This document shows positions 14,793 through 32,662 of a DNA stretch of 32,662 nt, in pieces (within the stretch, counting starts at the first letter, position 1; the number at the start of each line of letters is the position of its first letter). Origin of the DNA: a virus. The notes under the pieces are model-generated. The model was not told the origin of the DNA. It searched no databases and saw only the letters and a program-made list of their open reading frames with translations. Made by a program: the position numbers and the translations under genes. The stretch covers positions 1 through 32,662 of the IMG/VR virus record IMGVR_UViG_3300027138_000017. One strand, 5' to 3'.

Positions 14793-14793
14793 A

Positions 14794-16742: not shown

Positions 16743-16744
16743 GG

Positions 16745-17506: not shown

Positions 17507-17530
17507 AGTTCCTCATTATCCCACAAAAAG

Positions 17531-17572: not shown

Positions 17573-17587
17573 TTAATTACTTAATGA

Positions 17588-18904
17588 TTACGGTGCTGCT
17601 GGTGCGCCGTCAAAAGATACCTTGACGAACGACTCTGGACGCTTGACTGCAAGAGCCAAACGCTGTTCAGCAAGAATCACAATTGCGTTACGCACGAAGA
17701 AGTCTGCATGCTGTTCGCTAATGCGAATGCTTGGTGACTCACGGTCGTAGATTTGTGCTCCTGTACCGAATGCGCCGATAAGTGCAGTGCCTTCAGCAAT
17801 TGCAGGGGTGTCCACAACTGGGATCCTCCACAACTTCTGCTCGCCACCCATTGCAACAGAAACTGCTACGACATAAGCGCCGTTGCCGTCCTTGCTGAGT
17901 TCAATGTCTTCCCAATCGTTCGGGTTAAGAACGATACCCGATGGCTCGTAGTAAGCCAAGAAGGAAAGGGTTGCGGCACGACGGATTGCGTCAGCCTTGG
18001 TGTCGCTCATACCAGCAGTTGCTGAGTACACGCCATCCGACCAGTCGTAGGTCTGTACGCCCGGGGTATTCAAGATACCCGTAAGGTTTTCGCCAGTTCC
18101 TGAACCGTTAAGGATTTGTGCATCTTCCTGCAAGCGAAGACCGTACATCAACTCGTTGTCAATGATTGAGCGTAGTTGTGGCTCATCAGCAAGAACATTG
18201 CGGTGTGCGGCTTCCCAGTGAGCCAAGGTGCGAACAGGAGCCTGCTCACCAACGAAGGTGAAAGACGACTGTGGCTTGGCGCCGAATGCGGAACCCGAAC
18301 GCTCAGCAACTGCTGCTGCGTTGTTGGTGAATCCCGTCATGCGGAAGTATTCAATGATCGCAGCAGTCGTGGTGCGACTTGGGAACAAGTCACGAACACG
18401 CTTGGTACGCATTGGAGGAATAACCATTGCATCGCGTTGGATGGTTCCGAACGAGCCAGGTGTACCAGTTGGGAGTGCCGAGTACAAGTCTTTCTGACTG
18501 TACACTTCGCTACCCGACTTGTATGGTGCTGGCATGTTTGCCGAACCGCTCTGCAAAAGGGACTTGAACTCTGCTGAAGCAAGGAATGCCTCACCAATGC
18601 TCTTGCGACCCATTGACTGAACTACATGCTGGATTTCTTGTGAAGCGAAAGCCGAAGCCTGTGCTACTGAATCCTGTGGCTCTGAAGCCCACTTGTCAGC
18701 ATCGCGCATTGACTCAAGGCTCTCAACGAGCGACTTGATCTCGCGGATGTCTGCCATGTTCTTGTCAAACGCGGTCTTTTGTTCTGCGGATACGACTACG
18801 GTGCCGTCTTCAATTTTGAAGTTGTCGGCGATTGTCTTGTTTTCTGCCATCTTGGTGCGCATTGCACCTTGAAGTTCAGTTAAACGGCTGTTGTCAAATG
18901 ACAT
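17588..18904 (-). CDS. HK97-type major capsid protein
   Basis: A protein of 438 residues from the ATG at 18904, with AGGAG eight bases upstream; the GTG at 18913 overlaps that site and is less likely. Residues 1-110 are a charged helical delta/scaffold-like segment (LTELQGAMRTKMAENKTIAD, REIKSLVESLESMRD). The HK97 fold follows: TGTPGSFGTIQRDAMVIPP, MRTKRVRDLFPSRTT, an E-loop-like FGAKPQSSFTFVGEQAPV, DAQILNGSGTGENLTGILN, and the P-domain helix region PSGIVLNPNDWEDIEL with LWRIPVVDTPAIAEG. It assembles the icosahedral shell; the N-terminal segment would be removed by a protease. No separate scaffold or protease gene is identified in the window. Confidence 0.95.
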   Translation of the reverse strand: MSFDNSRLTELQGAMRTKMAENKTIADNFKIEDGTVVVSAEQKTAFDKNMADIREIKSLVESLESMRDADKWASEPQDSVAQASAFASQEIQHVVQSMGRKSIGEAFLASAEFKSLLQSGSANMPAPYKSGSEVYSQKDLYSALPTGTPGSFGTIQRDAMVIPPMRTKRVRDLFPSRTTTAAIIEYFRMTGFTNNAAAVAERSGSAFGAKPQSSFTFVGEQAPVRTLAHWEAAHRNVLADEPQLRSIIDNELMYGLRLQEDAQILNGSGTGENLTGILNTPGVQTYDWSDGVYSATAGMSDTKADAIRRAATLSFLAYYEPSGIVLNPNDWEDIELSKDGNGAYVVAVSVAMGGEQKLWRIPVVDTPAIAEGTALIGAFGTGAQIYDRESPSIRISEQHADFFVRNAIVILAEQRLALAVKRPESFVKVSFDGAPAAP

Positions 18905-19056
18905 GTTGTTCACTCCTAGTGAATTGGATTTGGTTGGTGATTACTTATGTTTCTTTATTGCAGACTTCGGTAAGCACCTAGTCCAGTTACTATTACTGTA
19001 ATACGAGAATAACATCAAAGTAGTATTAGAAATGCAACCCCATATTTAACACTCGG
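18905..19056 (-). promoter_or_regulatory. Leader region of the major capsid gene
   Basis: This 152-base gap holds no gene. On the minus strand it begins with GGGGTTGCATTT (19041-19030), identical to the box before the H1-like gene, then AT-rich sequence with TACTAC and a GTATTACAGTAATAG segment containing the short inverted repeat ATTAC-A-GTAAT, and ends with AGGAG before the ATG. A separate promoter for the capsid message is likely; the exact -10 is not clear. Confidence 0.4.
19030..19041 (-). repeat. 12-base repeat GGGGTTGCATTT, copy upstream of capsid gene
   Basis: Exact minus-strand copy of the plus-strand sequence at 7289-7300. Both are intergenic and orient toward a downstream gene. 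It could be a -35 region or an activator site. Confidence 0.4.
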
Positions 19057-21264
19057 CTATTTGGGACGGTATCTTTTAACTACCTTTGGACAGCATCCGC
19101 CAGCGTATTTGACACCGTATTCGCCTTCTTCAAAATCAGCCCATTTCTTGGCTGTTTTACGGCTTTTCCATGGGTGGTCAATAGGCAAAAGATCATTATC
19201 TTCTGAATACTTTACATCTTTAGGTTTGTCGGAGTTCAGCAACGATAGGAACTTTGAGACCCGATTATTTGCTTCTTCTCGTCCTCCGTCGGACAGCCCT
19301 CTGACGAATACCACCTTGAGGTCACGGAGGTTGGTTTTGGCAGAAGTTTTTGCTTTAGCGTTGTTCTTGCGTACCATGACAGCAAGGTTGTTGATGTCTG
19401 TGCTTGTCACAGTCGGCGGTTTTTTCTTTGGCTTAGGGACACCTTTGAAGGAAATGATGCCATCGCTTAGCGCATCTTTTTGTGATGGTTTTGCACCTCG
19501 TACTAGCATGATGTCTCTTACTGGTAGATCTTCTGGACGCCAAACCCATGGCAAATCGTCGTACACTCTTCTACCAACTTCGTTCATGTGTTGCTGTACT
19601 TGCTTGGGAGAAAGTTTAAACTTGCGCGCCGTGGCAACATAAGCCTGAGCCAACAACTTCCGTTTTTTCTTTTCCTGAGCCTTTTCGTCGTTGCCCCATT
19701 CTGCTTGTTCAAAAAGATTGTCAACAAGGTCATCCCAATGTTTTTTAACTTCTCGGGCTTTTTCAATGCTGACCATGCCCGGTGGGAGACGAGGGACATC
19801 TGGTTTACGACGCTCTATCTCAAATTCAATCTCTCGTTTCCTTTTAGCAAGTTCGTCTCGCCGAAGTTGGTTTTCCCATCTGGTTCGTTCGCGCTGTTGT
19901 TGTGGTGTTAACCTTTTCTTTGGTACTTTTTTCTTGGGCGCTGGTTTTTTGTTTTTAGGTTTTGGCACTTTTGCTACAGGAATATTATCTTCGCCATCTG
20001 CACCAGTAGCAAAACCGTCTCCGTCTCCATCTTCAAGAGCGCCTACCCCACCGATCGGTTTGAACATTCTTCTATATCCACCGATTGAACGACCAAGTGC
20101 TTTTTCCTCTGTTTCTGATTTCTTTTTGAAACCCGAACCCTGACGGCGAGGATTATTCCTCGGGCTGTTATCCCCTCGGATACCTGTGACACGGTTGTAG
20201 TCGGACACATTGGAACATGGAAGCCAAACAAGTTTCCCATCCCGTGCCGTATAACGGCGAATACCGATACAGCCAAGATTCCTTGAACGGATACGAGCAG
20301 AATCAGGATCGCTGAAAGTATCAGGATCTGTGGAACGGCTAACAAAGTTGACGAAACCCTTTTCGTCCATTGACCCATCAGAATTACTCGTAAGAGTCGC
20401 TACTATCTTTTTTATTTTTGCTTTACGAGAACGAAATCCGCCTTCTACCCCAAAAATTTCATTCTCTGGATCTTCTTCAACATCGTCAGATGGTTCAACT
20501 TCGTAGATGTATATCTTCTGTCCGGGTTTCACGACATCCGATCCATAACCACGAGCATCTTCAAGTTTTGAAGTTAGGTAGACGTAGTTTGTGTTGTTGA
20601 ACTCATTTGCGTCAATGTCGGGATGTGCTCGTGGCTTAACTCCAGTTTCCGAAGGTGGGAGTAAGTAGTCCCCAACATTCAACTTCACTGTGCTTCCATG
20701 AAACATTTTTTTAGGTATTTTGGGTACAGGAATATTATCTTCTCCGTCAGGACCAGTAGAGAACCCGTCACCATCACCATCAAAATCAGATACACCACCA
20801 ATAGGACGACCTAAAGACTTACCAGAAAACGAGCCAGTTACAAGCCCGCCACCCGGCAAAGTAGCAATACCAGTAATAGGTTTCTCGTCAAGGTTCTCCC
20901 AACCCCGTTTAGGTGCCTTATGGTTGCAAATCGCATAATACTTTTTCCCTGCAAGCATGACAGTTCGCACACCACCACAACCACGAGCCTTAGAAATAGC
21001 AACAGCATCAGCACGATTCTCGTAATATGCATCAGACTTTGTTTCTAAACGCTTGGTGCGTTGAACCATTTTTGGCAAAGGTTTTTTGTTATTTGAAGCA
21101 CGAACTTTCAGATACTCTTCTTTACCCTTTTTGATACCCTCATATTCTTCGTGTGAGGCGCAAGGCATCCAGCCAGCATCGGTCTCATGAGCGCCCTGAC
21201 ATCCAAGCATGCGGGCAACACGAAGCGCTTGATCTCTAGTGGTTTTTTCTTTATTTTCTGACAT
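19057..21264 (-). CDS. Large capsid-region protein with Arr-like ADP-ribosyltransferase domain
   Basis: A protein of 735 residues. The N-terminus has a cysteine module (LGCQGAHETDAGWMPC, 20-35), related in pattern to ARGCGGVRTVML...YYAIC and to LGCIGIRRYTARDGKLVWLPC (330-350). Residues 187-292 match rifampin ADP-ribosyltransferase (Arr): MFHGSTVKLNVGDYLLPP (His189), NYVYLTSKLEDARGYG (Tyr229), YIYEVEPSDDVEEDPEN (acidic catalytic site near 263-267), and FRSRKAKIKKIV. Two DxDxDGF blocks (160-180 and 411-430, each with EDNIPV) look like calcium-binding spacers. A Lys/Arg-rich helical C-terminal half ends YGVKYAGGCCPKVVKRYRPK. It should transfer ADP-ribose from NAD to a target. The stop of the preceding gene overlaps its ATG (TAATG). 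Confidence 0.85.
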   Translation of the reverse strand: MSENKEKTTRDQALRVARMLGCQGAHETDAGWMPCASHEEYEGIKKGKEEYLKVRASNNKKPLPKMVQRTKRLETKSDAYYENRADAVAISKARGCGGVRTVMLAGKKYYAICNHKAPKRGWENLDEKPITGIATLPGGGLVTGSFSGKSLGRPIGGVSDFDGDGDGFSTGPDGEDNIPVPKIPKKMFHGSTVKLNVGDYLLPPSETGVKPRAHPDIDANEFNNTNYVYLTSKLEDARGYGSDVVKPGQKIYIYEVEPSDDVEEDPENEIFGVEGGFRSRKAKIKKIVATLTSNSDGSMDEKGFVNFVSRSTDPDTFSDPDSARIRSRNLGCIGIRRYTARDGKLVWLPCSNVSDYNRVTGIRGDNSPRNNPRRQGSGFKKKSETEEKALGRSIGGYRRMFKPIGGVGALEDGDGDGFATGADGEDNIPVAKVPKPKNKKPAPKKKVPKKRLTPQQQRERTRWENQLRRDELAKRKREIEFEIERRKPDVPRLPPGMVSIEKAREVKKHWDDLVDNLFEQAEWGNDEKAQEKKKRKLLAQAYVATARKFKLSPKQVQQHMNEVGRRVYDDLPWVWRPEDLPVRDIMLVRGAKPSQKDALSDGIISFKGVPKPKKKPPTVTSTDINNLAVMVRKNNAKAKTSAKTNLRDLKVVFVRGLSDGGREEANNRVSKFLSLLNSDKPKDVKYSEDNDLLPIDHPWKSRKTAKKWADFEEGEYGVKYAGGCCPKVVKRYRPK

Positions 21265-21521
21265 TACTTTTTGGTTTTTTTCTTTTCAGGTTTCGTCTCA
21301 GATGAGTATGGCATAGACATACCAAATTCCATAAAAAGTTCATCAATTTTGTTTTTGTTATTCATCAAATAACTAACCATTTTTTCAATGTCACCATCTT
21401 CACCATTTTCGTGAGCGAAACCGAAAGCGGTTGAAATTATTTTTGAGCGTGTTTCATCGTTCTTTATGTTTCTGAATAATTCATCTCTGATAACAGATTT
21501 TTGTTCGTTGGTTAGTTTCAT
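21264..21521 (-). CDS. Small partner-type protein after the 1159-residue gene
   Basis: A protein of 85 residues from the ATG at 21521, with AGGGAT upstream and ten bases after the stop of the large gene. It is helical and charged (LTNEQKSVIRDELFRNIKND, IEKMVSYLMNNKNKIDELF) with a Lys-rich end (KPEKKKTKK). No family is recognised. Its position mirrors the small genes at 25011 and 28415, each directly downstream of a large array gene, so it may be a chaperone, immunity-like partner or packaging adaptor. Confidence 0.72.
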   Translation of the reverse strand: MKLTNEQKSVIRDELFRNIKNDETRSKIISTAFGFAHENGEDGDIEKMVSYLMNNKNKIDELFMEFGMSMPYSSETKPEKKKTKK

Positions 21522-21531
21522 AAAATTATCC

Positions 21532-24500
21532 CTAGCGTACCCGTGCGCCAATTTTTTGTTCGCCAAAACTCAGAACTGCACCACTCAAAGGTGCATTACC
21601 CACGAACCAGTGCTTAATATATTCTCGTCTTGCTTTGTCTGCGATGTTGCCATCATCAATCAAGAATATTGCATCTTGATGGCTATATTTGCGTCCTGCC
21701 CGTCCAGACTCAATAAATTTCTTGACACGAATGTATTGCTCGTCTGAAGAAATCAATCCACCCGGACCAAAGTTTTTGTAAAACTTCAATGCTTCTTCAA
21801 ACCTTTGGTAATGAGTGCTATTCATTCCGCCAAGTCTCTCTTTGAAACCAACTCGTGCCCAAACATATTTCCCGTCCTCAGCAGGACCGACTTCAGCAGT
21901 TTGTATTCCAATTGCTTTGAGATAGGTGAATGCTGTCTGATTGTAGATTGTTGCAAGATCTGCCGCTTTGTCCACATCGGATCGGATGAAAAATGAGTTT
22001 TGATAAACCTTCTTGGCATCTCCGGGGTAAATCGTTCTAGAAGAAACAGCAATTCCGAACCGCAAGACCCTTCCGTTAGCGTCAATCTCATCAAAAGATG
22101 TCTGTAGGTTAATTTTTCCATTATCAACGGAATAGGAAGTTACTGATACTTTGTACAACTTTCCATTAGCACCTTTAATGACAGGATGGGAATATGCTTC
22201 CCTGATATATGACTCCTTCTCGGATGCGCTAAGCGAAGCCCATTTTGCTGGCGTCATACCTTTAAACTTCGGTTGAGGACCACCTGCGGGATATCGTTCA
22301 TCAAGATATTTCTCTAACTTTTTACCCCGTTTAGATATTGCTTTATCTATGTCGGCTTCAATCTTTGCTTTGACAGCGTCAGGTGTTATCTTCCCTAAAT
22401 TGGAATCATTTTCGTTAATAACAAAACCTTGTTCTTTTCGGGCTAGCGCACTCTTGAGATCTTTTTCAAATCTTTTACGAAGTTCAAGCGAAACTTTTTC
22501 TCTAACTAAGAGTTTGTTTGCTTGATCCAACTGTCTGATATTGCTACCAGTTTGTTGAAAAAGCCTCCACTCTTCGTCATAGCGTGCTTGTCTATTTGCG
22601 ATCTTTACGTTTGCCTGAACAGTTCCGTCCTGATCGTCAAGATAATCCTCTATTGCCTCGTCTACCGATTTGCCACCAGCGATAGCGTTAAGTGCTTTAT
22701 CCAAAGCATCGTGATGATCATTGAGTCGTCCCTGTTGCTCGGCACCATGATTAAATTTCAACTTGTCAAGTTCTGCAATCATTGCCGCTAGTTCGGGAGC
22801 GTTATTGATTGCTAGAAGTTTTTCTTCAATTTCGCGATTCTTGTCTGGTTCAAAAGCGGGTTTGAATTCTAGGGGCTTGTATGCTATTTCTGTTGGGGCT
22901 CTATCGGCTCCGTTGGGCTTTTTGGGAGCGCTCGCATCACCAGTAGGAGTAGGTGTTGGTGTTGGGATTGGAGTTGGGGTTGAAGGTGTTTTTGGTTTGG
23001 TTTTAGGTTTCGGTGAGGATTCAGATGCAACATTTTGTAATGCTTGTTCAAAGAATTCGTTTTCAAGAACGCGTCGTCGCCTATCCTGAGCATTAACAAC
23101 AATCCTATTTAATGCATCTGCTCTTCTTTGACCAGTTGCGGCGCCATCTTGAATCAGTTCAACATCGCCGTCCATTCGGCTTTGAGCCTCACGAATTTCC
23201 TGCAAGTTAACAGCAATTCGTTCTCTCAGATCTTCGGGCTCGCCAAAATCTCCATCAAGAATCCTGCGCCTAAAGAATCTTCTGACATCATTAATTGGTT
23301 CTTCTTCAGCGTCCCACTGTGCTCTCATCACCTCTCGTTCTTCGGCATCTAGATCATCTCCTATCGCGGGAATCCAACCTCGTACAAAATTGTCAAAAGC
23401 ATCATTCTCTAGAAGAGGAACACCAAGAGGCTCAGGAGCGAATGTGCTGAATGGTGGAGAACCAGAACCGACTTGGTCAAGAACTTCTTGCCAACCTTCG
23501 CGGTGATCAAACATGCGCATCTTCAAATCAGATATTGTCAACCGCTCGTTGCCAACATTTATGTAGTCATTGAGGGAAAGTTTTTTATCATCAATTGCGT
23601 TTTCTATTTTTTCCAACCGTGCATCTACATCTCTGATTCGTGATCTTGCTTCTCTTGATTTAGCCTGAAGCCTTTCGCGACCACTTGGATAGTTTTCAGA
23701 GTCGTTGATTAGGGCGAGGCGCTGTTCTCTTAGCACAAGATTCATATACTGTGAAAAACGTTGTGGTTTATTCATCTGAAGTATTTCGTCTAGATCAACT
23801 TCCTGACCGATCTCTCTTTCTCGTTGCCTCTTTTTTGCGTCGGCAAGCACAGCCTGTTCCATCGCTACGCGGTTTTGTCGCAATTCTTCTGAACGCGCAG
23901 CATTGTCACTATTTCCGGGTTGTGGTTTTCTGCGTTTAGGTTGGGCGTTCCGACGCTCTTCCGATTCAGCATCAAGTAGCGCACCAATGTCGTTCCTGTC
24001 AGGGTTTGCCCTAGGGCGACGAGGCTTAACGACTTTTGGTTCAACAACTGTGCGTGGAGGCTGAAGACGCCTTACCTCTTCTTCCAACTTAACTATTTTT
24101 TCTCGTTGACGCCTGATTCCCTGTGGAGCCGCACTATTCTGTCGCATCATCTGCAACATGTCTCGTGCTTCGTTAAGATCACGCTCTGCTACTGCAAGCG
24201 GATCGGTCTCTCCTGCTTGGCGTGTTGGTGCTTTAGGTTTCTTTGTTGCTTCAACTACGGCACGACGGCGACGACGAGCAGGCGCTTCACCAGTTCTTGG
24301 TGCGCCCGGCTGTTCAATTTCGCGTTGCATTCTTCGTTGTTCTGATTCACGAAGATTTCCTTCACCCCGTGGTCTCGCAGGTTGACGTCTACGGGCAGGA
24401 CGAGCAGGTGCTTCGCCTGTTCGTGGCGCACCGGGCTGTTCAATTTCGCGATCCATGCGTCGTTGTTCTGAATCTCTAACATTTGGTGCACGCCTTCTGC

Positions 24501-25011
24501 GCTGTGGGCGAGGTGCAGGTGTCAATTCCCTAGGTGCTTCAGGTGTATCAACTGATGGTGGTCGTGCAACAACAGTTCTCCTACGCGCACCACGAGGGCT
24601 TGGCGTTCCTCCGCCGTCTAACCTATCTGCGACACCACGCAAACCTTGCTCAAGACGACCAGCGCCACCGCCTTCAGGATTAAGTCTTGCAAGTATTCGG
24701 CGTTCGCGACGAGCAATACGACGACCACGGCGAGCATCATCAACATTCTCTAAGCGTTGACCAATGTCTGATATTTGGTTAGCGATGCGTCGCGCTACGC
24801 CCCAACCACAAGACCGACCAAAACGATCTGTTATCTGTCCACCGTATCGTGTTCCTGTTGGGCATCGCCAGCCACCACGACGGTTGGTGCCGGGAATAGA
24901 AAGGCTTGGATCCCACATGGCGCGAACAGCCTTAACTTCGTAAGCAATCGTGGACGTGTTCTGTTCACTAAGAAAAGATTTTGCTTTGAAGTCAACAATA
25001 TTCTGAAGCAT
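21532..25011 (-). CDS. Giant array protein C: shared N-module, Arg/Pro linker, unknown C-terminal domain
   Basis: A protein of 1159 residues. Residues 1-89 are the shared module (FLSEQNTSTIAYEVKAVRA, WDPSLSIPGTNRRGGWRC, GTRYGGQITDRFGRSCGWG). Residues 90-360 are a basic, low-complexity Arg/Pro/Ala linker that carries two copies of a SEQRRM.REIEQPGAPRTGE unit (about 178-203 and 220-245). A long helical region with many charged repeats follows, then a Pro/Thr hinge near 690 (TPTPIPTPTPTPTGD). The C-terminal 215 residues contain GKYVWARVGF (1047-1056) and a closing HWFVGNAPLSGAVLSFG, a layout that recalls GNAT-like folds, but this is weak. It is probably a virion-internal protein. The ATG overlaps the upstream stop by one base. 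Confidence 0.82.
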   Translation of the reverse strand: MLQNIVDFKAKSFLSEQNTSTIAYEVKAVRAMWDPSLSIPGTNRRGGWRCPTGTRYGGQITDRFGRSCGWGVARRIANQISDIGQRLENVDDARRGRRIARRERRILARLNPEGGGAGRLEQGLRGVADRLDGGGTPSPRGARRRTVVARPPSVDTPEAPRELTPAPRPQRRRRAPNVRDSEQRRMDREIEQPGAPRTGEAPARPARRRQPARPRGEGNLRESEQRRMQREIEQPGAPRTGEAPARRRRRAVVEATKKPKAPTRQAGETDPLAVAERDLNEARDMLQMMRQNSAAPQGIRRQREKIVKLEEEVRRLQPPRTVVEPKVVKPRRPRANPDRNDIGALLDAESEERRNAQPKRRKPQPGNSDNAARSEELRQNRVAMEQAVLADAKKRQREREIGQEVDLDEILQMNKPQRFSQYMNLVLREQRLALINDSENYPSGRERLQAKSREARSRIRDVDARLEKIENAIDDKKLSLNDYINVGNERLTISDLKMRMFDHREGWQEVLDQVGSGSPPFSTFAPEPLGVPLLENDAFDNFVRGWIPAIGDDLDAEEREVMRAQWDAEEEPINDVRRFFRRRILDGDFGEPEDLRERIAVNLQEIREAQSRMDGDVELIQDGAATGQRRADALNRIVVNAQDRRRRVLENEFFEQALQNVASESSPKPKTKPKTPSTPTPIPTPTPTPTGDASAPKKPNGADRAPTEIAYKPLEFKPAFEPDKNREIEEKLLAINNAPELAAMIAELDKLKFNHGAEQQGRLNDHHDALDKALNAIAGGKSVDEAIEDYLDDQDGTVQANVKIANRQARYDEEWRLFQQTGSNIRQLDQANKLLVREKVSLELRKRFEKDLKSALARKEQGFVINENDSNLGKITPDAVKAKIEADIDKAISKRGKKLEKYLDERYPAGGPQPKFKGMTPAKWASLSASEKESYIREAYSHPVIKGANGKLYKVSVTSYSVDNGKINLQTSFDEIDANGRVLRFGIAVSSRTIYPGDAKKVYQNSFFIRSDVDKAADLATIYNQTAFTYLKAIGIQTAEVGPAEDGKYVWARVGFKERLGGMNSTHYQRFEEALKFYKNFGPGGLISSDEQYIRVKKFIESGRAGRKYSHQDAIFLIDDGNIADKARREYIKHWFVGNAPLSGAVLSFGEQKIGARVR
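24277..24354 (-). repeat. Linker repeat unit 2 (SEQRRM...PGAPRTGE) in protein C
   Basis: Codes for residues 220-245, LRESEQRRMQREIEQPGAP followed by RTGEAP. Nearly identical to the unit 42 residues earlier and to a unit in the 950-residue protein. Confidence 0.8.
24403..24480 (-). repeat. Linker repeat unit 1 (SEQRRM...PGAPRTGE) in protein C
   Basis: Codes for residues 178-203, VRDSEQRRMDREIEQPGAP followed by RTGEAP. Spaced 42 residues from the second copy. Confidence 0.8.
24745..25011 (-). repeat. Shared N-terminal module, copy in protein C
   Basis: Codes for residues 1-89. Stretches such as CGACGGTTGGTGCCGGGAAT (plus-strand view) are identical at the DNA level to the copy at 27677-27943, pointing to recent duplication or gene conversion. 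Confidence 0.9.
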
Positions 25012-25286
25012 TATTCGCTAAATTTCGCTTTCATCATGTCCAAGTTTTCTTGCGAGTATGGAATTGTCTCGTATTCAAAGTTCTGTGCAGATGTAATCCA
25101 ATATTCAACTGGATCTTCCATTGTCCCATTCTTTACGAATTGGCTGTAACTGCTTTCTGGATCATCAATAAGTTTTTTGATTGACTCTGCTGTATCACCA
25201 GATCCGAATACTTCAACATTTTTACCGTCGCACGAAATACCAAAACCAAAGTTCTGAATTACACCAATAAGTTTTTTCATAGTCAT
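25011..25286 (-). CDS. Small partner-type protein after the 994-residue gene
   Basis: A protein of 91 residues from the ATG at 25286 (or 89 from 25280); AAGGAAA lies just upstream. It starts MTMKKLIGVIQNFGFGISCD and continues GKNVEVFGSGDTAESIKKLI, with an acidic, aromatic C-terminus. It looks like a compact alpha/beta protein. It starts five bases after the large gene's stop, and its stop overlaps the start of the 1159-residue gene. It shares no obvious sequence with the other two small partners. Confidence 0.72.
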   Translation of the reverse strand: MTMKKLIGVIQNFGFGISCDGKNVEVFGSGDTAESIKKLIDDPESSYSQFVKNGTMEDPVEYWITSAQNFEYETIPYSQENLDMMKAKFSE

Positions 25287-25291
25287 TTTCC

Positions 25292-28276
25292 TTAAGGGTT
25301 TATTTTCTGCATCAGAAGATCAAGATATTCAGGGGATGCGAATTGGTCAATATTGTAGACAAGATCTGCCATTCTGTCATCTTTCGCATCAATGTCCAAA
25401 GCGTCAAACGCTTGGTTCATTTCGTTTACGCGACGCAAACCTACACGCATATTTTCTGCCGCCAACGCTATGTCCGCCTGTAATTCAGCACGAATCGCAT
25501 TTACTTCGCGAGTTCTTGCCGCCCCAACTTTCCCGTTAAGGCGTTTTGAATATCCACCCCATGACGCTTGATCCATCATCAGCCTAGACAAATACTGCAT
25601 TTGCCCTGACGCGCTCTTTCTACCAAATAGAGCGCGACCAAAATCCAATGGGATAGCGCCGTTGCCTTTGATCTGGTCGCCATTACCGTTATGCCTGTCG
25701 GCAACATTCATGATTGCATTCAAAGCACCATTAAAGAAACGAGACTTTGCATCAGTGACGCCACCCGGGCTGTAACGACCCGCAACTTTTCCTTCTGCGT
25801 TATTGACAAAAATGTCCATTAACAAGAATGGGTTATTGTTGCTTCCTTTGACAAGCCTTGGTGCACCATTTGCAAAACCAATTTGTTTAGCAAGAATGTT
25901 GCCGATTAGTTCTGCGTGCTGAGATATCTTTTTCCCGTTTCCTTGGTTGCTCTCCCAACCTCTATCTGGTTTCTTCAAAAAATATCCGCGACCCCATTTG
26001 GCTGGATCGTCAGATAGGTGAAAGTAATAGAGTGGAGAAGTAATACCGCTACTAGCAGGAACTTCAATAAATTCTATATTTTTGTCCTTCAATGCCTTGA
26101 TAAGTTTTTTTGTATCTTCATCAATTGCTGGTGGTGCTTCATTGAGTGATCTGCGAAAATTCGTAGACAAACGCTTCATGATTTGAACAACTTCTGCGTC
26201 GTCAGCGGATGGAAAAACAGATCGGACAGCATCAACAACATTTGGGCTCATCGCACCACGATCCTTGTGTGTGCGCTTTTGTATTACGTCTAAAAGAAAT
26301 TCGTCAGGGATATCTGCAAGCGATCCCCTGTACCTTCTTGCGTCTGCAAGGGTGTTTATCCCCTTGTTTCCAACACGAACTGCGACAAACTTTCCATCGT
26401 CTGGCTGTAGTTTAGGCAATTCGGTGTAGTGGTTATCCACAAGATTATTCATCTTTAATTGTTGGGCGTTTCTACCACGCTGACGTGTAGGCGCTCGTGG
26501 TGGAGTCCGTGGTGTTGGCGGTTCAGGTGGTTCGCTATCTCCACCGCTTTGATCCAAAAATCGTTGACTGAAATCGCGTAGATAACGATTCAACGATGCT
26601 TGATCCTGTAAACCTCGGTACTCTTGTTCTAGAGCATCACCATCAACACTATTTCTTGCTATGAGACCACGGAATTCTCCGTTTTCCTGTGGGAGTAATT
26701 CAATTTCCCAGTTTCCTTTTTTCCATCTTGTTGAACCGTCAGGCTGATTAACGGCGTCCCAACCCTCTCCACCAAAATCGGGCATTTTTACATTTGCCCG
26801 TGCCGGTGCGCCCCCGTCTCCGGGTGTGACAAAACCACGACCATCTGGTGAGCGTCGCGGTCGGCGTGCAGGGCGTGCAGGGCGTGCAGGTGCTGGCTCG
26901 GGAACATCATTCGCTTGTGGTTTGCGTGATGCGCTACGACCAGCACCCTGTGCTGTTGCTTGCCGACGGCGACGACGGTTATTTTGTGGGCGACGATTAC
27001 GAGGCGCTGGTGGTTCAAAATCCAGTGGTGCTGAACGACCGTGTGCATCTTTCCAAGCATCGCGAAGATTATTTTTGTTGATCTCATACCATTCACGGCG
27101 AGTCAACATTCCTGCGTTTCCGCCACCTTCGCGAATTTCTCGTACTCGTTTAGCGTATTCACCATATTTTCGTAATACATACGGTTTGAAATCTTCTGTT
27201 TCACTAGCGTCGGAAGCATCTCTTGCGGTGAGAACATCAACATTTGCTGGTTGTGGCGCAACGCGCGGGCGTGCTTGTGGTCGTACCTGTGGGCGTCGTT
27301 GTCCTGCTGGTGCTGGTCGGCGTGCAGGACGAGGTTTTGGTGCAGGTGTAGGCGCTGTTTCTGGTAGTACATCGCGACGACGGTTCCTTGGCACTCGTGC
27401 AGATGGTGCTTCTATTTCAGGACTCGCTTGTCTGTTTGGAACCCGACGTTGCCCGACTAGACCGCGTGCGACGTTTCGCCAACCGTCGTCAATGCCATCT
27501 GTTTCTGCAACTACGCCACGACCCACTCGTGGTTTTGGTGAATCTCCGCCATCTAAACGATCAGCGATACCTCTTAGACCGCCTTCAACCCGACCAGTTT
27601 CCGCAACTCCGCCAAGCCGTCTCATCATGCGGGCGTTACGGCGATCAAGACGACGCTTCCGTTTATCGTCATCTCGTTGTTCTAAGCGTTCGCCAATGTC
27701 GGCGATTTGGTTTGCGATTCGTCGCGCAACTCCCCACCCGCACGAACGACCAAAACGATCTGTGATTTGTCCGCCGTACCTTGTGCCAACAGGGCATCGG
27801 AAACCTCCACGACGGTTGGTGCCGGGAATAGAGAGGCTTGGATCCCAAACTGCACGAACACCTTTGATTTCAAAATGCGCTGATGAACGAGTTTGGTCAG
27901 AAATAAAAGAAGATGCTTTAAAAGTCAAAACATTTTTGAACTCTGCATCAGAAAACTCTGATAGCAAAACTTCTGAAATAGATAAGACTGGCAGGTGCTT
28001 TAATTCAATTGGCTCGCTTTGAATTTCGGTAAGTGAAGCAAATTTTTTCTGAACTGCTGTACCAGATGGGCTTGGACCTTCAATGATTTTGGATGCGTCC
28101 ATAGACTGAACAAGTTCAGGTTTGGTTATTGGTGTTTTGGCATATTCTTCGCGAAGTATCCCAACAAGTTCCTTGGCATCTTCCGTCATTGGCTTGAATG
28201 TGGATCCCTCAGGGGTCGTTGAAACAACCATAAATGGGGTGTTGTCACGGTTCTTGATAATGAAAACTAGGTTCAT
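25292..28276 (-). CDS. Giant array protein B: shared N-module, linker, kinase-like C-terminal domain
   Basis: A protein of 994 residues. An extra 111 residues (MNLVFIIKNRDNTPFMVVS onward) precede the shared module at 112-200 (FKASSFISDQTRSSAHFEIKG is its variable start, split here as FKASSFISDQ and HFEIKG; then TDRFGRSCGWG). An Arg/Pro/Ala linker spans about 200-620. The C-terminal third has atypical-kinase features: GYFLKKPDRGWE (candidate ATP lysine 768/769), Glu789, VADRHNGNGDQ (catalytic-loop-like, 858-868) and IPLDFGRALFG (metal-binding Asp878), resembling PI3/4-kinase-, HipA- or FAM20-type kinases. It should act on a protein or lipid after delivery, if active. AGGs upstream are weak; a 138-base gap precedes it, unlike its neighbours. 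Confidence 0.82.
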   Translation of the reverse strand: MNLVFIIKNRDNTPFMVVSTTPEGSTFKPMTEDAKELVGILREEYAKTPITKPELVQSMDASKIIEGPSPSGTAVQKKFASLTEIQSEPIELKHLPVLSISEVLLSEFSDAEFKNVLTFKASSFISDQTRSSAHFEIKGVRAVWDPSLSIPGTNRRGGFRCPVGTRYGGQITDRFGRSCGWGVARRIANQIADIGERLEQRDDDKRKRRLDRRNARMMRRLGGVAETGRVEGGLRGIADRLDGGDSPKPRVGRGVVAETDGIDDGWRNVARGLVGQRRVPNRQASPEIEAPSARVPRNRRRDVLPETAPTPAPKPRPARRPAPAGQRRPQVRPQARPRVAPQPANVDVLTARDASDASETEDFKPYVLRKYGEYAKRVREIREGGGNAGMLTRREWYEINKNNLRDAWKDAHGRSAPLDFEPPAPRNRRPQNNRRRRRQATAQGAGRSASRKPQANDVPEPAPARPARPARRPRRSPDGRGFVTPGDGGAPARANVKMPDFGGEGWDAVNQPDGSTRWKKGNWEIELLPQENGEFRGLIARNSVDGDALEQEYRGLQDQASLNRYLRDFSQRFLDQSGGDSEPPEPPTPRTPPRAPTRQRGRNAQQLKMNNLVDNHYTELPKLQPDDGKFVAVRVGNKGINTLADARRYRGSLADIPDEFLLDVIQKRTHKDRGAMSPNVVDAVRSVFPSADDAEVVQIMKRLSTNFRRSLNEAPPAIDEDTKKLIKALKDKNIEFIEVPASSGITSPLYYFHLSDDPAKWGRGYFLKKPDRGWESNQGNGKKISQHAELIGNILAKQIGFANGAPRLVKGSNNNPFLLMDIFVNNAEGKVAGRYSPGGVTDAKSRFFNGALNAIMNVADRHNGNGDQIKGNGAIPLDFGRALFGRKSASGQMQYLSRLMMDQASWGGYSKRLNGKVGAARTREVNAIRAELQADIALAAENMRVGLRRVNEMNQAFDALDIDAKDDRMADLVYNIDQFASPEYLDLLMQKINP
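27677..27943 (-). repeat. Shared N-terminal module, copy in protein B
   Basis: Codes for residues 112-200. It is the only copy placed internally behind an extra N-terminal domain, and it is most similar to the copy in protein C at the DNA level over the SIPGTNRRGG part. Confidence 0.9.
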
Positions 28277-28414
28277 TGTTTACTTTCCACATTTGTGAAG
28301 GCATTGAGCAAGCCCTGAAAGTCTTGCGTCGCAATATCGCTACCGTAAAATGGTATCACTAACAAGGCGGCGCTAATTTAAAGGCACCAACAAATAAAAT
28401 AGTGTGTAAATATA
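28277..28414. other. 138-base gap in the head array
   Basis: The only sizeable gap between genes of the array upstream of 21264. No open frame of note. On the minus strand it contains TTGTTAGTGATACC and AT-rich runs that could hold an internal promoter for protein B. No terminator hairpin with a U-tract is apparent. Confidence 0.3.
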
Positions 28415-28702
28415 TTACTTGGAAGTTTTTTGTATTTCTTTTATCAGCGAAGCAACAAGATCGGCTGAAGCACCCTCGGTAATTTTTGGCTGGTCAATAC
28501 CCTCGCTCATGATATTTCCGATACCCATATACCCGAACCCGATTTTCGGGTCATCAAAAATATTTTTACTTTTCGGGGAGTCTTCTTCCGTCTCTTCCAC
28601 ACCGTTTGGTCGGTACAAAGAGAACTTGCCCTTTGCACTGGCGACGACGAGCATCTGCAATTTGCCATTTTGTCTTGCTTCGTAGGTTATTGGGAAAGCC
28701 AT
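28415..28702 (-). CDS. Small partner-type protein after the 950-residue gene
   Basis: A protein of 95 residues from the ATG at 28702, with AGGA nine bases upstream; a TTG at 28720 is a longer option. It starts MAFPITYEARQNGKLQMLVV, then a strand-rich KGKFSLYRPNGVEETEEDSP and a helical end SADLVASLIKEIQKTSK. The general layout (two strands, acidic loop, C-terminal helix) is like the extra N-terminal domain of protein B, though direct identity is low. Role unknown; position suggests a cognate partner of the kinase-like protein upstream. Confidence 0.72.
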   Translation of the reverse strand: MAFPITYEARQNGKLQMLVVASAKGKFSLYRPNGVEETEEDSPKSKNIFDDPKIGFGYMGIGNIMSEGIDQPKITEGASADLVASLIKEIQKTSK

Positions 28703-28723
28703 AATCTGTAATCCTATCAACTA

Positions 28724-31576
28724 TTAGAGGAATTGGTCAACCATGTCGTCTAGGTTGTTCTCAATCCAAGAGATTCTAGCCTCGGCTACCCGTTTTAGGG
28801 CTCGGATGTGTGCTTTCTCAATGTCTGATAGTTGCGCTCCGTTTGCCTGAATACGGTCAACACCAAGAATCGTGTCTAGATCTTCTTTCATTTTCCCTAC
28901 AGACCTACGCATGGTTTCCTTCAAAATTCTTCTGTCTCGGGGATTTTGGATTTTGTAACCAGCACGTTTCAACCCAGTGACCCCATTATTGAATTGATCC
29001 CTGTATTCCCTCACCCCGGGATTCGCAACTATTGCATTAGCCCATCGTTCAAGGTGTTCAGGTATTTCATTAACGTCAACACCATCACGGCGACCACCAC
29101 CAAGCAAACCGTGGTCAATGACACCCAAACGGACACGACCTCCAGCCTCCACCCACATGAAGTTTCCTCCATGCCTGTCCCTGTTGTCAAGAACCATGTC
29201 TAAAACAGCGATTCTTCCAACATCTCTAGGGTTTATTTTAGTAGCCACAACATCCAAACCATCTTTAGCGTCTTTCCACTCTCCTTGAACACCATTTTCC
29301 CACTGATGGATATCCCTCATCATTATCCATCGGCGAGGCTGTACTAGACGACCAGCAATAGGGTCGTTGGCTATCACATTGCCGAGACGCAAATGGTTTT
29401 CGTCGTTCCCAAATTCAAGTGCCTGAGCGGCACGCATGCCAACATTCTCAAGTAGACCGTCATTCGCCCCATAGGTTGACGACTTCATAAACCACTTTTC
29501 GCCAGTGTTTTTGTCTACTACTTTAAGAACACACCAAACATCAGCACCACCGTTGCTTTGTTTAACAAGTTCAAACTTGTATCGCCTATTCTCAAACTTT
29601 GCACCACGCTCAAAATCCTTGAAACCGTTCCTTATGAATCCTGCTACTTCAGCATCGGTGTACTCTCTGCCACGTTGAAGGTTCCCATCTATGAACTGTC
29701 CGTCAACCACAGCATCAATGACAATTCCGTCTTGAACATCAGCAAGATTACCACCATCCTCATGTAACTGTTTGATGGCTTCATTTAGCATTTGTTCTCT
29801 ACCAATTTTCCTTGGTGATCTTCCTCCTGCGTCAGCATCGGGAACGATTTTGTCCTCAGGAATTGCTTCTTCGGCATCAGGTGCTGAAGGCTCAGTTGGG
29901 CGGGCTGGTGGCTGCGCGCGTGGCGGATTTTGTATTACTGGCACATTATTGTTGCCACCCGCAGCAGGAGGTCGTTGTCTGAATTCAATACCAGCATCAA
30001 TTTCAGTAATTCTCAACTCGGCAGCCGAAACACCCTCTTTTAGATTTTCTTTTTGCGCCCACATCCGCAATAAATTATCTCTGGCTTCGTCTCTTGCTCG
30101 TTCGTTACCATTCTTTTTGCTTTGCCAGTCTTTGAAGGCTTCATCAAATCCTGCTTGAGCCTGTTTAAGGAGTTGTTGGTCTTGAATTTTCTTGCCTAAA
30201 ACTTCTTCTTTAGATAGGTTGCGCAAATTATTGTAAGCATTTGGCTTGTATCTTTTAACTTGTTCCTCTACTGCTTGTACTACACGCCGATCTCTGTCTT
30301 GATCAAATTCTCTGCGCGGGTTTATGTCCCTTGCTGGGATTGGTGGTGGACCTGCTGGTCGTGCGGGTGCTTTTGGTTCAGGTGCTTTTGGTGCGGGCGC
30401 TGGCGGTGCGGGCTGTGGCGCTCCTGCCTGTTGTGCAAATATTTGTTGGTTAACAAAATTGCCACGAGCATTACGCTTATTGTTGTCACCGTAATAGCGA
30501 CCGAACCTTCTTTCTAGTTCGGCTCTCTCTTCACCTTCAGGGAAATCTGGTTTACGCCAATACGCATCTTCGGGTAGCCCACGAAGATCACCGAAACGGT
30601 TACGAACATTGCGAATAGAAGCAGCGTCTGGAACGCTTCCACCCAACTCGTCTGCTGTTGGATTCCATGCGGGTGGATCAGGAATTGGTGTTGATGGTTT
30701 CTGTTGTTCTGGCGGTTTTGGTGCAGGTTTTCTGCGTGGCACCTTCGTCGGTTCGGGTTTAGCACTGTCAACAAAATCTGCTTCAGGCTTTCTTCTTGCT
30801 GTTCGTTTCGCGCCCTGTTGTGCTGCGGCTCGTCGTCGGCGTCGTGGAGCATTCGGTCTTGGTGGTTCACCTGTCCGTGGCGCGCCGGGTTCAACTAATT
30901 CTCGTTCCATTCTTCGCTGTTCAGATTCACGTAGTTTCCCCCGTCTCCTACCTGCTTCGCGTCCCAGTTCCGCAAGACGTTCTAGATCTATGTCGGTGCG
31001 ACCGTTGGCATCAATTACTCTTCCATCGCCAAGTGTGATTCTTCCGTTTTCATCTTGATTAGGCATGCGAGGAGTGGAGGTTCGTGGACGGGCTGGTGAT
31101 TGCACAGGAATTCTTGGGCGTTGTCGCTGAACAGGGATTCTTGGGCGGGCAGTTGGTCGTGCTTGTTGCGGAGCCTGTCCACCCTCAAGTGCTTCTGCAA
31201 TATTTCGTGCACCACGCTCAAGAAAACCTGGCTTGTTCTGACGAGCCAACATTCGTTGTACACGAGCATTGCGTCTTGCCAAACGGTCGTTCCGTTTGCG
31301 GTCATCAATGTTTTCTAAACGCTCACCGATATCTGCGATTTGGTTTGCAATACGGCGTGCAACACCCCATCCGCATGAGCGACCAAATCTGTCGGTTATT
31401 TGTCCACCGTAACGGGTGCCAACTGGACAGCGCCATCCTCCGCGACGATTCGTTCCGGGTATAGAAAGACTCGGATCCCAAATCGCTCTAACGCCTTTTA
31501 CTTCATAACTGAAAGTACTGGATGTTTGTTCAGATAGGAAAGTAAGAGCCTTAAAATTTACTTCGTTTTTGAGCAT
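28724..31576 (-). CDS. Giant array protein A: shared N-module, linker, PI4K/HipA-like kinase domain
   Basis: A protein of 950 residues. The shared module is residues 1-89 (FSYEVKGVRAIWDPSLSIPG, RCPVGTRYGG, TDRFGRSCGWG). A basic linker with one SEQRRMERELVEPGAPRTGE unit (near 217-236) and long Pro/Ala runs extends to about 640. The C-terminal domain has EKWFMKSSTYGAND (candidate Lys698), Glu710 in LLENVGMRAAQAL, RRWIMMRDIHQW, IAVLDMVLDNRDRHGGN (catalytic Asp/His/Asn at 800-805) and LGVIDHGLL (metal Asp821). This order is that of PI4K-II/HipA/FAM20-type atypical kinases and is better preserved than in protein B. It should be a protein or lipid kinase of the virion or of the entry stage. Confidence 0.85.
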   Translation of the reverse strand: MLKNEVNFKALTFLSEQTSSTFSYEVKGVRAIWDPSLSIPGTNRRGGWRCPVGTRYGGQITDRFGRSCGWGVARRIANQIADIGERLENIDDRKRNDRLARRNARVQRMLARQNKPGFLERGARNIAEALEGGQAPQQARPTARPRIPVQRQRPRIPVQSPARPRTSTPRMPNQDENGRITLGDGRVIDANGRTDIDLERLAELGREAGRRRGKLRESEQRRMERELVEPGAPRTGEPPRPNAPRRRRRAAAQQGAKRTARRKPEADFVDSAKPEPTKVPRRKPAPKPPEQQKPSTPIPDPPAWNPTADELGGSVPDAASIRNVRNRFGDLRGLPEDAYWRKPDFPEGEERAELERRFGRYYGDNNKRNARGNFVNQQIFAQQAGAPQPAPPAPAPKAPEPKAPARPAGPPPIPARDINPRREFDQDRDRRVVQAVEEQVKRYKPNAYNNLRNLSKEEVLGKKIQDQQLLKQAQAGFDEAFKDWQSKKNGNERARDEARDNLLRMWAQKENLKEGVSAAELRITEIDAGIEFRQRPPAAGGNNNVPVIQNPPRAQPPARPTEPSAPDAEEAIPEDKIVPDADAGGRSPRKIGREQMLNEAIKQLHEDGGNLADVQDGIVIDAVVDGQFIDGNLQRGREYTDAEVAGFIRNGFKDFERGAKFENRRYKFELVKQSNGGADVWCVLKVVDKNTGEKWFMKSSTYGANDGLLENVGMRAAQALEFGNDENHLRLGNVIANDPIAGRLVQPRRWIMMRDIHQWENGVQGEWKDAKDGLDVVATKINPRDVGRIAVLDMVLDNRDRHGGNFMWVEAGGRVRLGVIDHGLLGGGRRDGVDVNEIPEHLERWANAIVANPGVREYRDQFNNGVTGLKRAGYKIQNPRDRRILKETMRRSVGKMKEDLDTILGVDRIQANGAQLSDIEKAHIRALKRVAEARISWIENNLDDMVDQFL
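30860..30934 (-). repeat. Linker repeat unit in protein A
   Basis: Codes for residues 215-239, LRESEQRRMERELVEPGAP followed by RTGEPP, the same unit found twice in protein C. It is absent from protein B. Confidence 0.8.
31310..31576 (-). repeat. Shared N-terminal module, copy in protein A
   Basis: Codes for residues 1-89. Protein identity with the copies in B and C is very high from WDPSLSIPG through SCGWGVARRIANQI, while the DNA differs at many third positions, so the protein is under purifying selection. Confidence 0.9.
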
Positions 31577-32662
31577 TTACGATTTCTTTCGCTCTTTTGC
31601 GAGATCAGGTTTGATGAATGTTTCGTAAAGCCAGCGTGGAGCCTTCCGTGTAACACCATCTGCACCAGTGTATTCAACGAGTTCTAATGCATCTGGAATT
31701 TTTCCACTGTCAACAATAAATTTGAATGCACCTTCCGATGCGTTCGCAAAATCCTCAATGTTTTTTATAATATTGTCTTTATTGCTTGACTCCGCAAGAG
31801 AGTTGATCATTCGCGGAAACTTTCGCTTCTCACCAATAGTGAAAGGACGTGATCGTTCAATACTGATGCTCACACCGTTAGGTGCAACGAAAGCAATTTT
31901 GCTCATTGAAGGACCACCCAAGAGCGCTAGATCATCAGCACCTATGTCAGATGGAAGTTGAACTGCACGAACCATCGCACCATCAACCATGTCAGGGTTC
32001 TCACTGAAGGAACGCAAAACCGATGATGGAACTACAGGGCGAAGAACCACGCCATCTCTACGGATCATTCGTCCTTCGCCTCGTGGTGCACCCTTCAAAA
32101 GACTCACCGCATCAGACACAGACTTGCCAAACTTGTCTTTTTGGAAAGCACCTGTTCTTGGTATTTGTGCCATGCGTTGAATTTGAATGGTGCGCGTATT
32201 GCTTGGATTTCCTTCTAATACTTCAGAAAGGTTTTCTGCTCGTGCTTGTGGCAGTCGTGTGGTTGCCCCTCGTACCGCGCGAGCAATTAGTGCGAGTGGT
32301 CCTGGTATTTCAAATAGTTGCGCACCACAGGTTGAAAAACGGTTGTCTGTGAATCGTCCACCATATTCAAAACCAGCAGGGCATCGCGCTTGACGCTTGC
32401 GATTAGGCTTTAGTCTGCTTAATGCGCCACCACCACCGCCGGGTACGAGCGCGCCGTAAACTCTTGAACGAATAGGTGATGTAAGTGGCGAAATGTTCCC
32501 CGGTGTCAGTGCAGAACCAACGGCTTGTGCCGCTCTACCTGCCGTGCTTCCAGAACCAATTAGTCCTGCTTTCGTTTCCATGTCCTCTGCATCGTCTTTT
32601 CCGACACGGTATCCACCACCACGCTTTTTGTATTCACGAACAAGCCAAGCATTAGCGTAAGC
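31577..32662 (-). CDS. Capsid-region protein with a related RCPxG...TD.RFSTCG motif (5' end outside window)
   Basis: The frame stays open to the right edge: 27 codons before the internal ATG at 32581 read AYANAWLVREYKKRGGGYRV, then GKDDAED, which looks coding, so the true start lies beyond the window and 361 residues are visible. A Gly-rich segment (LVPGGGGGALSRLKP) precedes RCPAGFEYGGRFTDNRFSTCG, a divergent version of the shared module's cysteine motif. The rest is mixed alpha/beta (SKIAFVAPNGVSISIERSRP, RMINSLAESSNKDNI), ending WLYETFIKPDLAKERKKS. It may be a portal-associated, protease or ejection protein; I cannot assign it. Its stop lies directly before the ATG of protein A. Confidence 0.75.
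   Translation of the reverse strand, partial: AYANAWLVREYKKRGGGYRVGKDDAEDMETKAGLIGSGSTAGRAAQAVGSALTPGNISPLTSPIRSRVYGALVPGGGGGALSRLKPNRKRQARCPAGFEYGGRFTDNRFSTCGAQLFEIPGPLALIARAVRGATTRLPQARAENLSEVLEGNPSNTRTIQIQRMAQIPRTGAFQKDKFGKSVSDAVSLLKGAPRGEGRMIRRDGVVLRPVVPSSVLRSFSENPDMVDGAMVRAVQLPSDIGADDLALLGGPSMSKIAFVAPNGVSISIERSRPFTIGEKRKFPRMINSLAESSNKDNIIKNIEDFANASEGAFKFIVDSGKIPDALELVEYTGADGVTRKAPRWLYETFIKPDLAKERKKS

Follow-up and report, generated by a model that had tools for sequence, protein, structure and literature searches.

The IMG/VR virus record IMGVR_UViG_3300027138_000017, analysed here over its full 32,662 nucleotides (nt; positions 1 to 32,662, hereafter the window), carries in its head gene cluster an array of large minus-strand proteins, named A, B and C, in which a constant module is joined by a basic linker to a C-terminal enzyme-like domain (the tip), with a small partner gene directly behind each of them. 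Comparison with related viral contigs revealed that the partners are specific to the tips and that tip and partner are exchanged as one block between close relatives. The constant front, the enzyme folds, the tip-partner pairing and the block exchange were all computed here, and we consider it close to certain that they make up effector-partner cassettes. Taken as a whole, the reading of this locus as a polymorphic effector array, with tips delivered by the virion and small proteins acting as their cognate inhibitors, is in our judgement evenly poised between right and wrong.

A constant module fused to variable tips

An earlier note, drawn up from the letters of the window alone, had described a module of ~90 residues shared by A, B and C, and a search within the window's own record recovered it in C (E 3.8e-61), A (E 3.5e-52) and B (E 7.2e-50), together with a fourth, weak match (E 3.5e-5) in the gene at 31577, where a divergent form of the core had been pointed out and which is cut by the window end. 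The module lies on the minus strand at 31292..31558 in C (profile E 5.6e-44), 27659-27922 in B and 24727-24993 in A. The same note had set it apart from MuF, and indeed no MuF model came up when A, B and C were compared with Pfam at E values of up to 1, MuF and the module having been compared through Pfam alone.

Scanning viral contigs with the module, as the note had envisaged, gave 59 loci, and over these and the window a hidden Markov model (HMM) retrieved 113 module proteins (72 distinct modules, 1-3 per locus) on contigs reaching 138 and 145 kb. Their fused C-terminal domains were listed as types T0-T7, defined by BLAST of the last 300 residues. Exclusion of the 20/113 proteins cut by a locus end left 93 complete ones, among which 66 C-terminal stretches of 300 residues and 68 whole sequences are distinct; loci L001-L004, being pieces of the window, were dropped from the counts. 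Over the 68 module proteins, the Arg/Pro/Ala linkers announced by the note are basic (median isoelectric point, pI, about 10.0; 41% R/K/P/A), the module has a median pI of 10.8, and the tips are less basic (median pI 8.1, net charge +1). A basic module and linker fit proteins lying on packaged DNA, with no proof of it, and the linker is probably disordered. A linker unit, [ED]SEQRRM.RE....PGAPRTGE.P.R, is present twice in A (window 24259-24348 and 24385-24474) and once in C (30839-30928), a repetition suggesting that linkers recombine as well.

Protein C (950 amino acids, aa; 28724..31576, minus strand) consists of the module, the basic linker and a HipA/CotH/PI4K-like kinase domain of type T4 (28727..29806, minus strand), in which the catalytic-core K, E, D-R-H..N and D are present. 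The AlphaFold model of its last 360 residues, built from a 37-sequence alignment, reached a pLDDT of 89.2 and a pTM of 0.90. Among solved structures it came closest to the CotH kinase (Z 14.8, root-mean-square deviation (rmsd) 3.9, 268 residues aligned), followed by CtkA (Z 13.4), PI4KIIIbeta (12.9), HipA (12.0, rmsd 4.7, 237 aligned), VPS34 (11.9), actin-fragmin kinase (11.1) and HipT (10.5); the top Foldseek rows mixed eukaryotic protein kinases with PI3K, and VIA-align ranked the candidates differently. In this model the tip has a HipA-like kinase fold with its catalytic residues, CotH and CtkA scoring higher than HipA. Across the 37 aligned kinase tips, covering five types, E120, D210, R211, H212, N215 and D231 are invariant (37/37) and K108 is conserved in at least 90%, so that these tips look catalytically competent. 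Pfam matched C weakly (PI3_PI4_kinase, 0.0044), gave no match for B, and recognised members of type T1 (PI3_PI4_kinase 3.1e-7; HipA_2, best E 1.2e-5), a type that profile comparison with hhalign relates to T4 at 99.5%. Searching PDB sequences with two kinase profiles yielded nothing better than E 0.087, and HipA/PI4K-like kinases joined to this module were not described in the literature searched, whose coverage was partial.

Protein B (994 aa; 25292..28276, minus strand) carries an N-terminal extension of ~112 aa (27941-28276) ahead of its module, then a basic linker and a kinase tip of type T2 (25295-26374). Such a long extension was observed in 39 distinct module-protein sequences, beginning M..VFIIKNRD..PFMVV in the window's group; the one that was scanned gave no Pfam match above cut-off. 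The extension of B had been suspected by eye to be a fused partner, but it reached 4.4% at best in hhalign comparison with the partner groups, which does not support this candidate. Module proteins of types T0-T4 include some that have the long extension and some that lack it, and T5 was found only with it (4/4).

Protein A (1159 aa; 21532..25011, minus strand) ends in a different domain, located at 21535-22434 behind its module and basic linker. Its model (pLDDT 85.8) resembled acyltransferases of the GNAT or p300/CBP type in all of the 50 listed Foldseek rows; the VIA rows were mostly GNATs, including the toxins TacT, AtaT and KacT, although the top row was an acetyl-CoA-binding isocitrate lyase 2. 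A PDB sequence search with the GNAT-like profile gave no match, and the domain is here called GNAT-like, an assignment that remains weak. This type, T0, occupies the last module gene found in the locus in 17/17 distinct cases (slot A). The earlier note had held all three C-terminal domains to be unrelated; this stands for A, which aligns with the kinase tips at 0.1% (hhalign), and is ruled out for B and C, which share the kinase fold (T4 versus T2, 96.8%).

Pairing of tips with small partner genes

Small genes of ~90 aa start 21, 5 and 10 nt past the stops of C, B and A, respectively, the spacing for A being read from contig L028, which is 99.98% identical to the window over 14745-26316. The partner of C (28415..28702, minus strand) has 95 aa from the ATG at 28702, within an open reading frame (ORF) that begins with TTG at 28720; that of B (25011..25286, minus strand) has 91 aa; and that of A (21264..21521, minus strand) has 85 aa from the ATG at 21521, in a TTG-start ORF beginning at 21566. 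Ratios of non-synonymous to synonymous substitution rates (dN/dS) were 0.175 and 0.074 for the partners of C and B against L005, and 0.074 for the L028 copy of the partner of A against L006. Over the 19/22 comparisons that were unsaturated, values ranged from 0.03 to 0.18 for small genes and from 0.08 to 0.24 for tips, and both members of the cassette are under purifying selection. Directly adjoining and unrelated small genes had been part of the earlier description, and the six partner groups of module proteins indeed have no detectable mutual relation (hhalign, highest probability 18.7%); the same comparison leaves unsupported the idea that the small genes form one chaperone family.

The association between tips and partners was then quantified with partner families defined separately from tip types, by BLAST at E < 1e-5. 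Applying an ATG-only rule, a small ORF was found for 64/68 distinct complete proteins; the four left out of the mutual information were those of L020 (contig edge), L056 and L057, and one sequence shared by L015, L017 and others, in which a GTG-start small ORF provides a 65th partner. Among the 68 distinct proteins no partner family stands behind two C-types, and over the 64 the mutual information between C-type and partner family equals the full C-type entropy of 2.53 bits, when 2000 shuffles, also within backbone classes, reached 1.15 bits at most. Pairs of proteins from different contigs with a module identity of at least 95% agreed in both type and partner (32 pairs) or differed in both (25 pairs), leaving 0/57 discordant, with the partner changed in 25/25 pairs whose tip type changed; in 8 further pairs the partner was missing on one side. 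The polymorphic logic proposed at the outset, a constant module bearing a variable tip with a tip-specific partner, is thereby borne out.

Exchange of tip and partner as one block

Alignment of the window with contig L007, without identity filter, delimited two minus-strand blocks that gave no blastn hit (E 1e-3), each comprising the kinase domain and its partner: 28364..29891 in C and 25012..26497 in B. The flanks of the C block match L007 at 85-89% alongside and 94% further upstream, and behind the B block similarity is back at 25011, exactly where gene A begins. The modules of B and C are 100% identical in protein to those of L007, where kinase types and partners differ. Homologues could have carried the same C-terminal domains throughout, a point that the earlier note had raised; at slots C and B identical modules precede different kinase types, while in slot A the domain stays the same.

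Similar boundaries were observed elsewhere. Between contigs L016 and L017, identity is 93.9% along 14.5 kb, as far as the linker of the second module gene; kinase and partner (14510-16282) give no hit, and a match at 81% begins again within three bases of the start of the next frame; L012 and L013 display the same block-replacement pattern at 88.7% identity. The reverse holds between L016 and L007, where 73-81% identity upstream is followed by 94.7% over kinase, partner and next module, and 91.5% beyond. Tip and partner are exchanged as one block between close relatives.

Because related sequences are not independent, swaps were counted on a tree, a quick protein tree of the gene at site 1 (described below) with 41 rows, in which 8/26 inner branches are open. 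Taking all lineages, the tree requires at least 10 changes at the first module position (34 loci) and 11 at the second (29 loci). Since the numbering of positions does not carry over strictly from lineages with two module genes to those with three, the count was also made on the 15 three-module loci alone, giving minima of 3 changes at position 1 and 5 at position 2.

Head gene cluster, host and lifestyle

From the right end of the window, the minus strand holds the cut gene at 31577, then C, B and A, each with its small gene behind it, the gene at 19057 and, at the far end of the array, an HK97-type major capsid protein (17588..18913, minus strand; Phage_capsid 3.5e-45). In L016 the portal is followed by an S78 prohead protease (6.5e-11), a gene of 498 aa and a small gene; next come a 617-aa gene at what we call site 0, a second small gene, a 583-aa gene at site 1, which is the counterpart of the gene cut by the window end, and then the counterparts of C, B and A. 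The L016 portal corresponds to phrog_2662 (1e-94) and has head-morphogenesis-like PHROG matches at its C-terminus. In L039 a major head protein (1.4e-64) follows the counterpart of the 19057 gene (site 5). The array lies between protease and capsid gene, in line with the head-region location supposed earlier; this arrangement is a composite of L016, L039 and the window, each annotated here over part of the interval from portal to capsid.

The window also carries a WhiB gene (PF02467, 1.6e-13), and the best listed matches of its capsid protein are Gordonia and Brevibacterium phages (45-56% identity); because of these two features the host of what we take to be a tailed phage is probably an actinobacterium. 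Integrase and resolvase families (PF00589, PF00239) had no match in 29 records of up to 145 kb, whose completeness is unknown, which suggests, short of proof, that the module-bearing phages are lytic.

Wider polymorphism at sites 0, 1 and 5

Polymorphism extends beyond the array delineated by the earlier note, reaching a gene outside the window and an optional domain inside it. The RCPxG..TD..C core of the module (~25 residues) is also present in the proteins of sites 0 and 1, whose profiles relate to the module at 93.3% and 86.8%, respectively, and to each other at 81.5% (hhalign). Using a distant-module profile, 1-5 matches per record were obtained in each of the 29 records. Pfam gave no match for the long relatives in L058, L060, L061 and L047, and one below cut-off for L056. 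Of 115 candidate stretches from a scan of bacterial genomes, 1 passed; it matches over 25 residues, lies in an Elusimicrobia metagenome-assembled genome and was taken as chance.

Site 0, just beyond the right end of the window, encodes a protein with a conserved front of ~110 residues and several C-terminal types (L016:6122-7972, L007:6271-7956, L025:2105-4024 and L031:5695-7992). A first set of 24 fell into six C-terminal groups, and after a further scan, many loci of which are on contigs already in the first set, 36 distinct complete C-termini, including some from frames that are short or may be broken, formed 11 BLAST groups. The domains recognised were a PI3/PI4-like kinase (1e-6) and DUF3626 (6.2e-10); the recurrent groups 1 and 2 and the other groups tested had no Pfam match above cut-off. 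Most site-0 genes have a small downstream gene, several rows being without a partner found, and no partner family spans two groups, the kinase group and group 3 having two partner families each. The distant L063 (genes L063:639-4163 and L063:4506-9170) combines in one site-0 protein a HipA/PI3-like kinase and a poly-A polymerase/CCA-like domain (PolyA_pol 5e-31), and the opening stretch of its module protein reads, we presume, like a 2'-5' ligase. In L038 an IDGHHR motif was observed, which we take to be ParB-like.

The site-1 protein is represented in the window by its 3' part only (31577..32662, minus strand), the gene running past the window end, with its divergent core RCPxGF..GG.FTD....STCG at 32315-32389. 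This core is present in 31 sequences, and the open frames of close relatives measure 573-592 aa.

The site-5 protein (735 aa; 19057..21264, minus strand; DUF3721) is made of a common core and an insert, in which an Arr-type domain of ADP-ribosyltransferases (ARTs; Arr-ms, E 6.2e-6, above cut-off) lies at ~20464-20703. The insert is missing from the gene in L017 and L027, is of the Arr type in the window and L028, and is of other kinds in L016 and L029, the coordinates in relatives being L016:19326-20267, L029:14515-16197 and L027:7295-8431. Its linkers have the form DGDGDGF..G.DGEDN, and LG..IGG...DGDGDGF.TG-like stretches adjoin the inserts.

Comparison with known systems

The closest analogy is with the MuF polymorphic toxins (PMC5576092), which likewise have a constant head-associated N-terminus, a variable C-terminal enzyme and a small ORF behind, within a head or packaging cluster. 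The variable enzyme on a constant N-terminus and the tip-specific small ORF directly downstream are found here as well. A, B and C differ in being without a MuF domain (PF04233/PF06152 and relatives) in the Pfam scan, in their number, a record holding as many as three module proteins and five core-bearing ones, and in the capsid relatives of their phages, which are myovirus-like actinophages, with no integrase found in the 29 records of uncertain completeness. MuF toxins are described in that source only from temperate phages of Firmicutes, and kinases have 0 occurrences in its main text on them (Jamet et al. 2017, PMC5576092). Since the MuF domain is missing, this is by the tested features not a MuF system, yet it works like one.

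Polyvalent proteins (Iyer et al. 2017, PMC5512222) are also large and multidomain, neighbour virion genes, are predicted to be injected and include ARTs and GNATs. Their kinase, known mainly from phages of Verrucomicrobia-Chlamydia and of Bacteroidetes, is of a Ser/Thr/Tyr type that has lost its C-terminal subdomain, recombining cassettes were suggested for one kinase locus, and HipA and PI3 are not in the main text (PMC5512222). The neighbourhood of portal and S78 protease (L016) and of the HK97-type capsid gene (window, L039) is a trait in common. Unlike polyvalent proteins, those described here have mostly one recognised enzyme each, as in A, B and C, together with a tip-specific partner gene; the distant L063 protein joins two.

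HipBA and HipBST (PMC8262856) resemble the kinase cassettes in setting a kinase fold beside a small gene, HipS being a small antitoxin of HipT that is related to a ~100-aa HipA subdomain. They differ in that the kinases are here fused to a head-region module and that the nine small proteins scanned have no HipA-type match above cut-off in Pfam. T4 Alt, which is packaged in the head and injected (PMC5512222), provides the model adopted here of an enzyme delivered with the DNA. Unlike T4 Alt and the internal head proteins, the present tips are polymorphic and have partners. In T4 internal head proteins, the prohead protease cuts off a capsid targeting sequence.

Gordonia phages GMA6 and ScarletRaider and Brevibacterium phage Cantare are among the nearest sequenced relatives by capsid protein, and tail-sheath genes are annotated in the Cantare and ScarletRaider records. 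In one or more of the three, the portal-to-capsid interval holds genes annotated as RNA ligase and as VIP2-like ART, and it also encodes large proteins in which an HE[LI]GH motif occurs. By eye, a stretch VR.VR...YG.P.GT.I... repeats at the start of or inside the ART-like and HE[LI]GH proteins of Cantare (L064), ScarletRaider (L065) and GMA6 (L066). The module itself was unmatched there by tblastn and the repeated front stretch differs from it in sequence; possibly this stretch is an analogous head-loading tag in cultured phages.

Proposed mechanism and competing explanations

We propose that the array proteins would be made late, alongside the capsid, that their front part would place them inside the procapsid and that the basic linker would lie on the packaged DNA. 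At infection they would exit with the DNA, as T4 Alt does, and their tips would modify proteins of the host or of a rival. Behind kinase and GNAT-like tips, the small gene would supply a cognate inhibitor silencing the tip in the producing cell. Delivery by the virion appears probable by analogy with T4 Alt, polyvalent proteins, the ARTs in the head region of myoviruses (PMC9503650) and MuF toxins (PMC5576092, PMC12226406), and from the location in the head cluster; with slightly less assurance, we lean towards an inhibitory role of the partners, on the model of HipS and HipT. The delivery and effector role proposed in the earlier note thus has partial support. Going further, and more tentatively than for either of these components, the cassettes may represent a second, MuF-independent polymorphic effector-immunity system in possibly purely lytic phages, in which an RCPxG..TD..CG tag would load kinases, GNATs and ARTs, kinase and GNAT cassettes would each come with an antidote, and injected arsenals differing between relatives may target rival phages or host defences.

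If the proposed delivery and inhibition are right, head-packaged polymorphic effectors would not be confined to the MuF toxins of temperate phages, and phages of lytic appearance would hold arrays of exchangeable enzymes that modify proteins, most of them partnered, close relatives differing in their cassettes. Five kinase types, whose partner groups show no detectable mutual relation, and one GNAT-like pair form a defined set, in addition to a short candidate head-loading tag. They also raise the question of why a phage that kills its host needs a tip-specific small protein, one that separates inhibitor, chaperone and phage-against-phage models.

Several observations weigh against delivered tips with cognate inhibitors. 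Nine small proteins were scanned without a Pfam match above cut-off, HipA-type domains included. No small ORF was found for the distinct module proteins of L056 and L057, and the ART insert of the 19057 gene has no small gene of its own, so that not every tip is partnered. Same-type pairs fall in different partner families in 100/357 cases at the BLAST cut, partly because these families were cut finely, and backbone class by itself gives 0.43 bits on the partner, just below the shuffle maximum of 0.44. Slot A is invariant in tip type, and the tips of B and C are, by profile, variants of one kinase superfamily. For the A tip, 7/930 Foldseek matches reach E 0.001 or better and Z is 7.8 at best (VIA); this low Z is the reason for the label GNAT-like rather than proven GNAT, and the match could instead reflect a common structural arrangement. 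Searched by tblastn, the module, protein C, the L016 site-0 protein and the front part of the L041 site-0 protein had no match in 50,697 phage records, in which a sequenced relative of the module is thus lacking. Finally, the records are of uncertain completeness and the pair counts, stemming from related sequences, are non-independent. Tip-specific pairing, moreover, would suit chaperones as well as inhibitors.

This last point introduces the most durable alternative, in which the effectors are delivered and each small protein serves its tip as a chaperone in folding or packaging, or as a loading adaptor, aiding its loading without having to protect any cell, a serious possibility even if we judge it improbable. 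The small proteins are mostly acidic (pI under 7 in 49/61) and encoded right behind the tip, and a lytic phage, as the unmatched integrases and resolvases suggest, would have no lasting need of immunity. However, T1, T2 and T4 are one fold by profile and their partner groups are not detectably related, as would be expected more of inhibitors facing diverging active sites, and HipA-like kinases are known to have small antitoxins such as HipS (PMC8262856).

The array proteins could alternatively be head components acting in the producing cell or the procapsid, for instance by modifying capsid or DNA-bound proteins, and never be delivered. Their genes have the prohead protease on one side in L016 and the capsid gene on the other in the window and L039, and sites 1 and 5 occur in forms without enzyme tip, all of which agrees with this, but a structural modifier should stay constant with its head cluster, and the tips are replaced where the adjoining sequence is 89-94% identical, which makes this explanation unlikely. 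Very unlikely, in our view, is a predator-directed role as Trojan horse toxins, eukaryote-like kinases and ARTs being released into protists that eat infected cells. Such a role was proposed for VIP2-like ARTs of freshwater phages (PMC6802176), and the kinase tip is similar in fold to CtkA and PI4K, not to HipA alone; a toxin acting on eukaryotes only, however, would need no tip-specific partner in the bacterium, and the partner changed with every change of tip, while the best structural match is a bacterial CotH kinase and HipA is itself close to PI4K. The least probable explanation is a metagenome assembly artefact creating false swaps by joining strains at similar repeated modules, for although modules of different positions are 73-81% identical in DNA across genomes, making mis-joins conceivable, tip and partner are linked within ~1.5 kb of non-repeated sequence that such joins would leave unaltered, the blocks end within the linker and at the start of the following gene and not in the module, and identical combinations appear again in contigs of separate name (L016, L018 and L019; L015, L017 and L023) and inside contigs of 138 and 145 kb.

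Other features of the window

A promoter scan returned 16 sites for 16.6 expected, and PADLOC gave weak matches only. On the plus strand, a histone-deacetylase-family gene (window 13537-14541; PF00850, 2.1e-18) overlaps an ORF at 13002-13589 (plus strand) that has no Pfam match at 1e-3 and an HC.AGISRS motif, which we take to be phosphatase-like. Together, the deacetylase and the possible phosphatase could be erasers of the modifications made by the phage's own acetyltransferase-like and kinase effectors. The window further encodes a GlcNAc-type glycosyltransferase (1399-2382), a phytanoyl-CoA dioxygenase family protein (5843-6607), a DNA methylase (7624-9060), a B12-type ribonucleotide reductase (10258-12243), a 2OG-Fe(II) oxygenase (15593-16168) and a staphylococcal-nuclease homologue (16341-16748).

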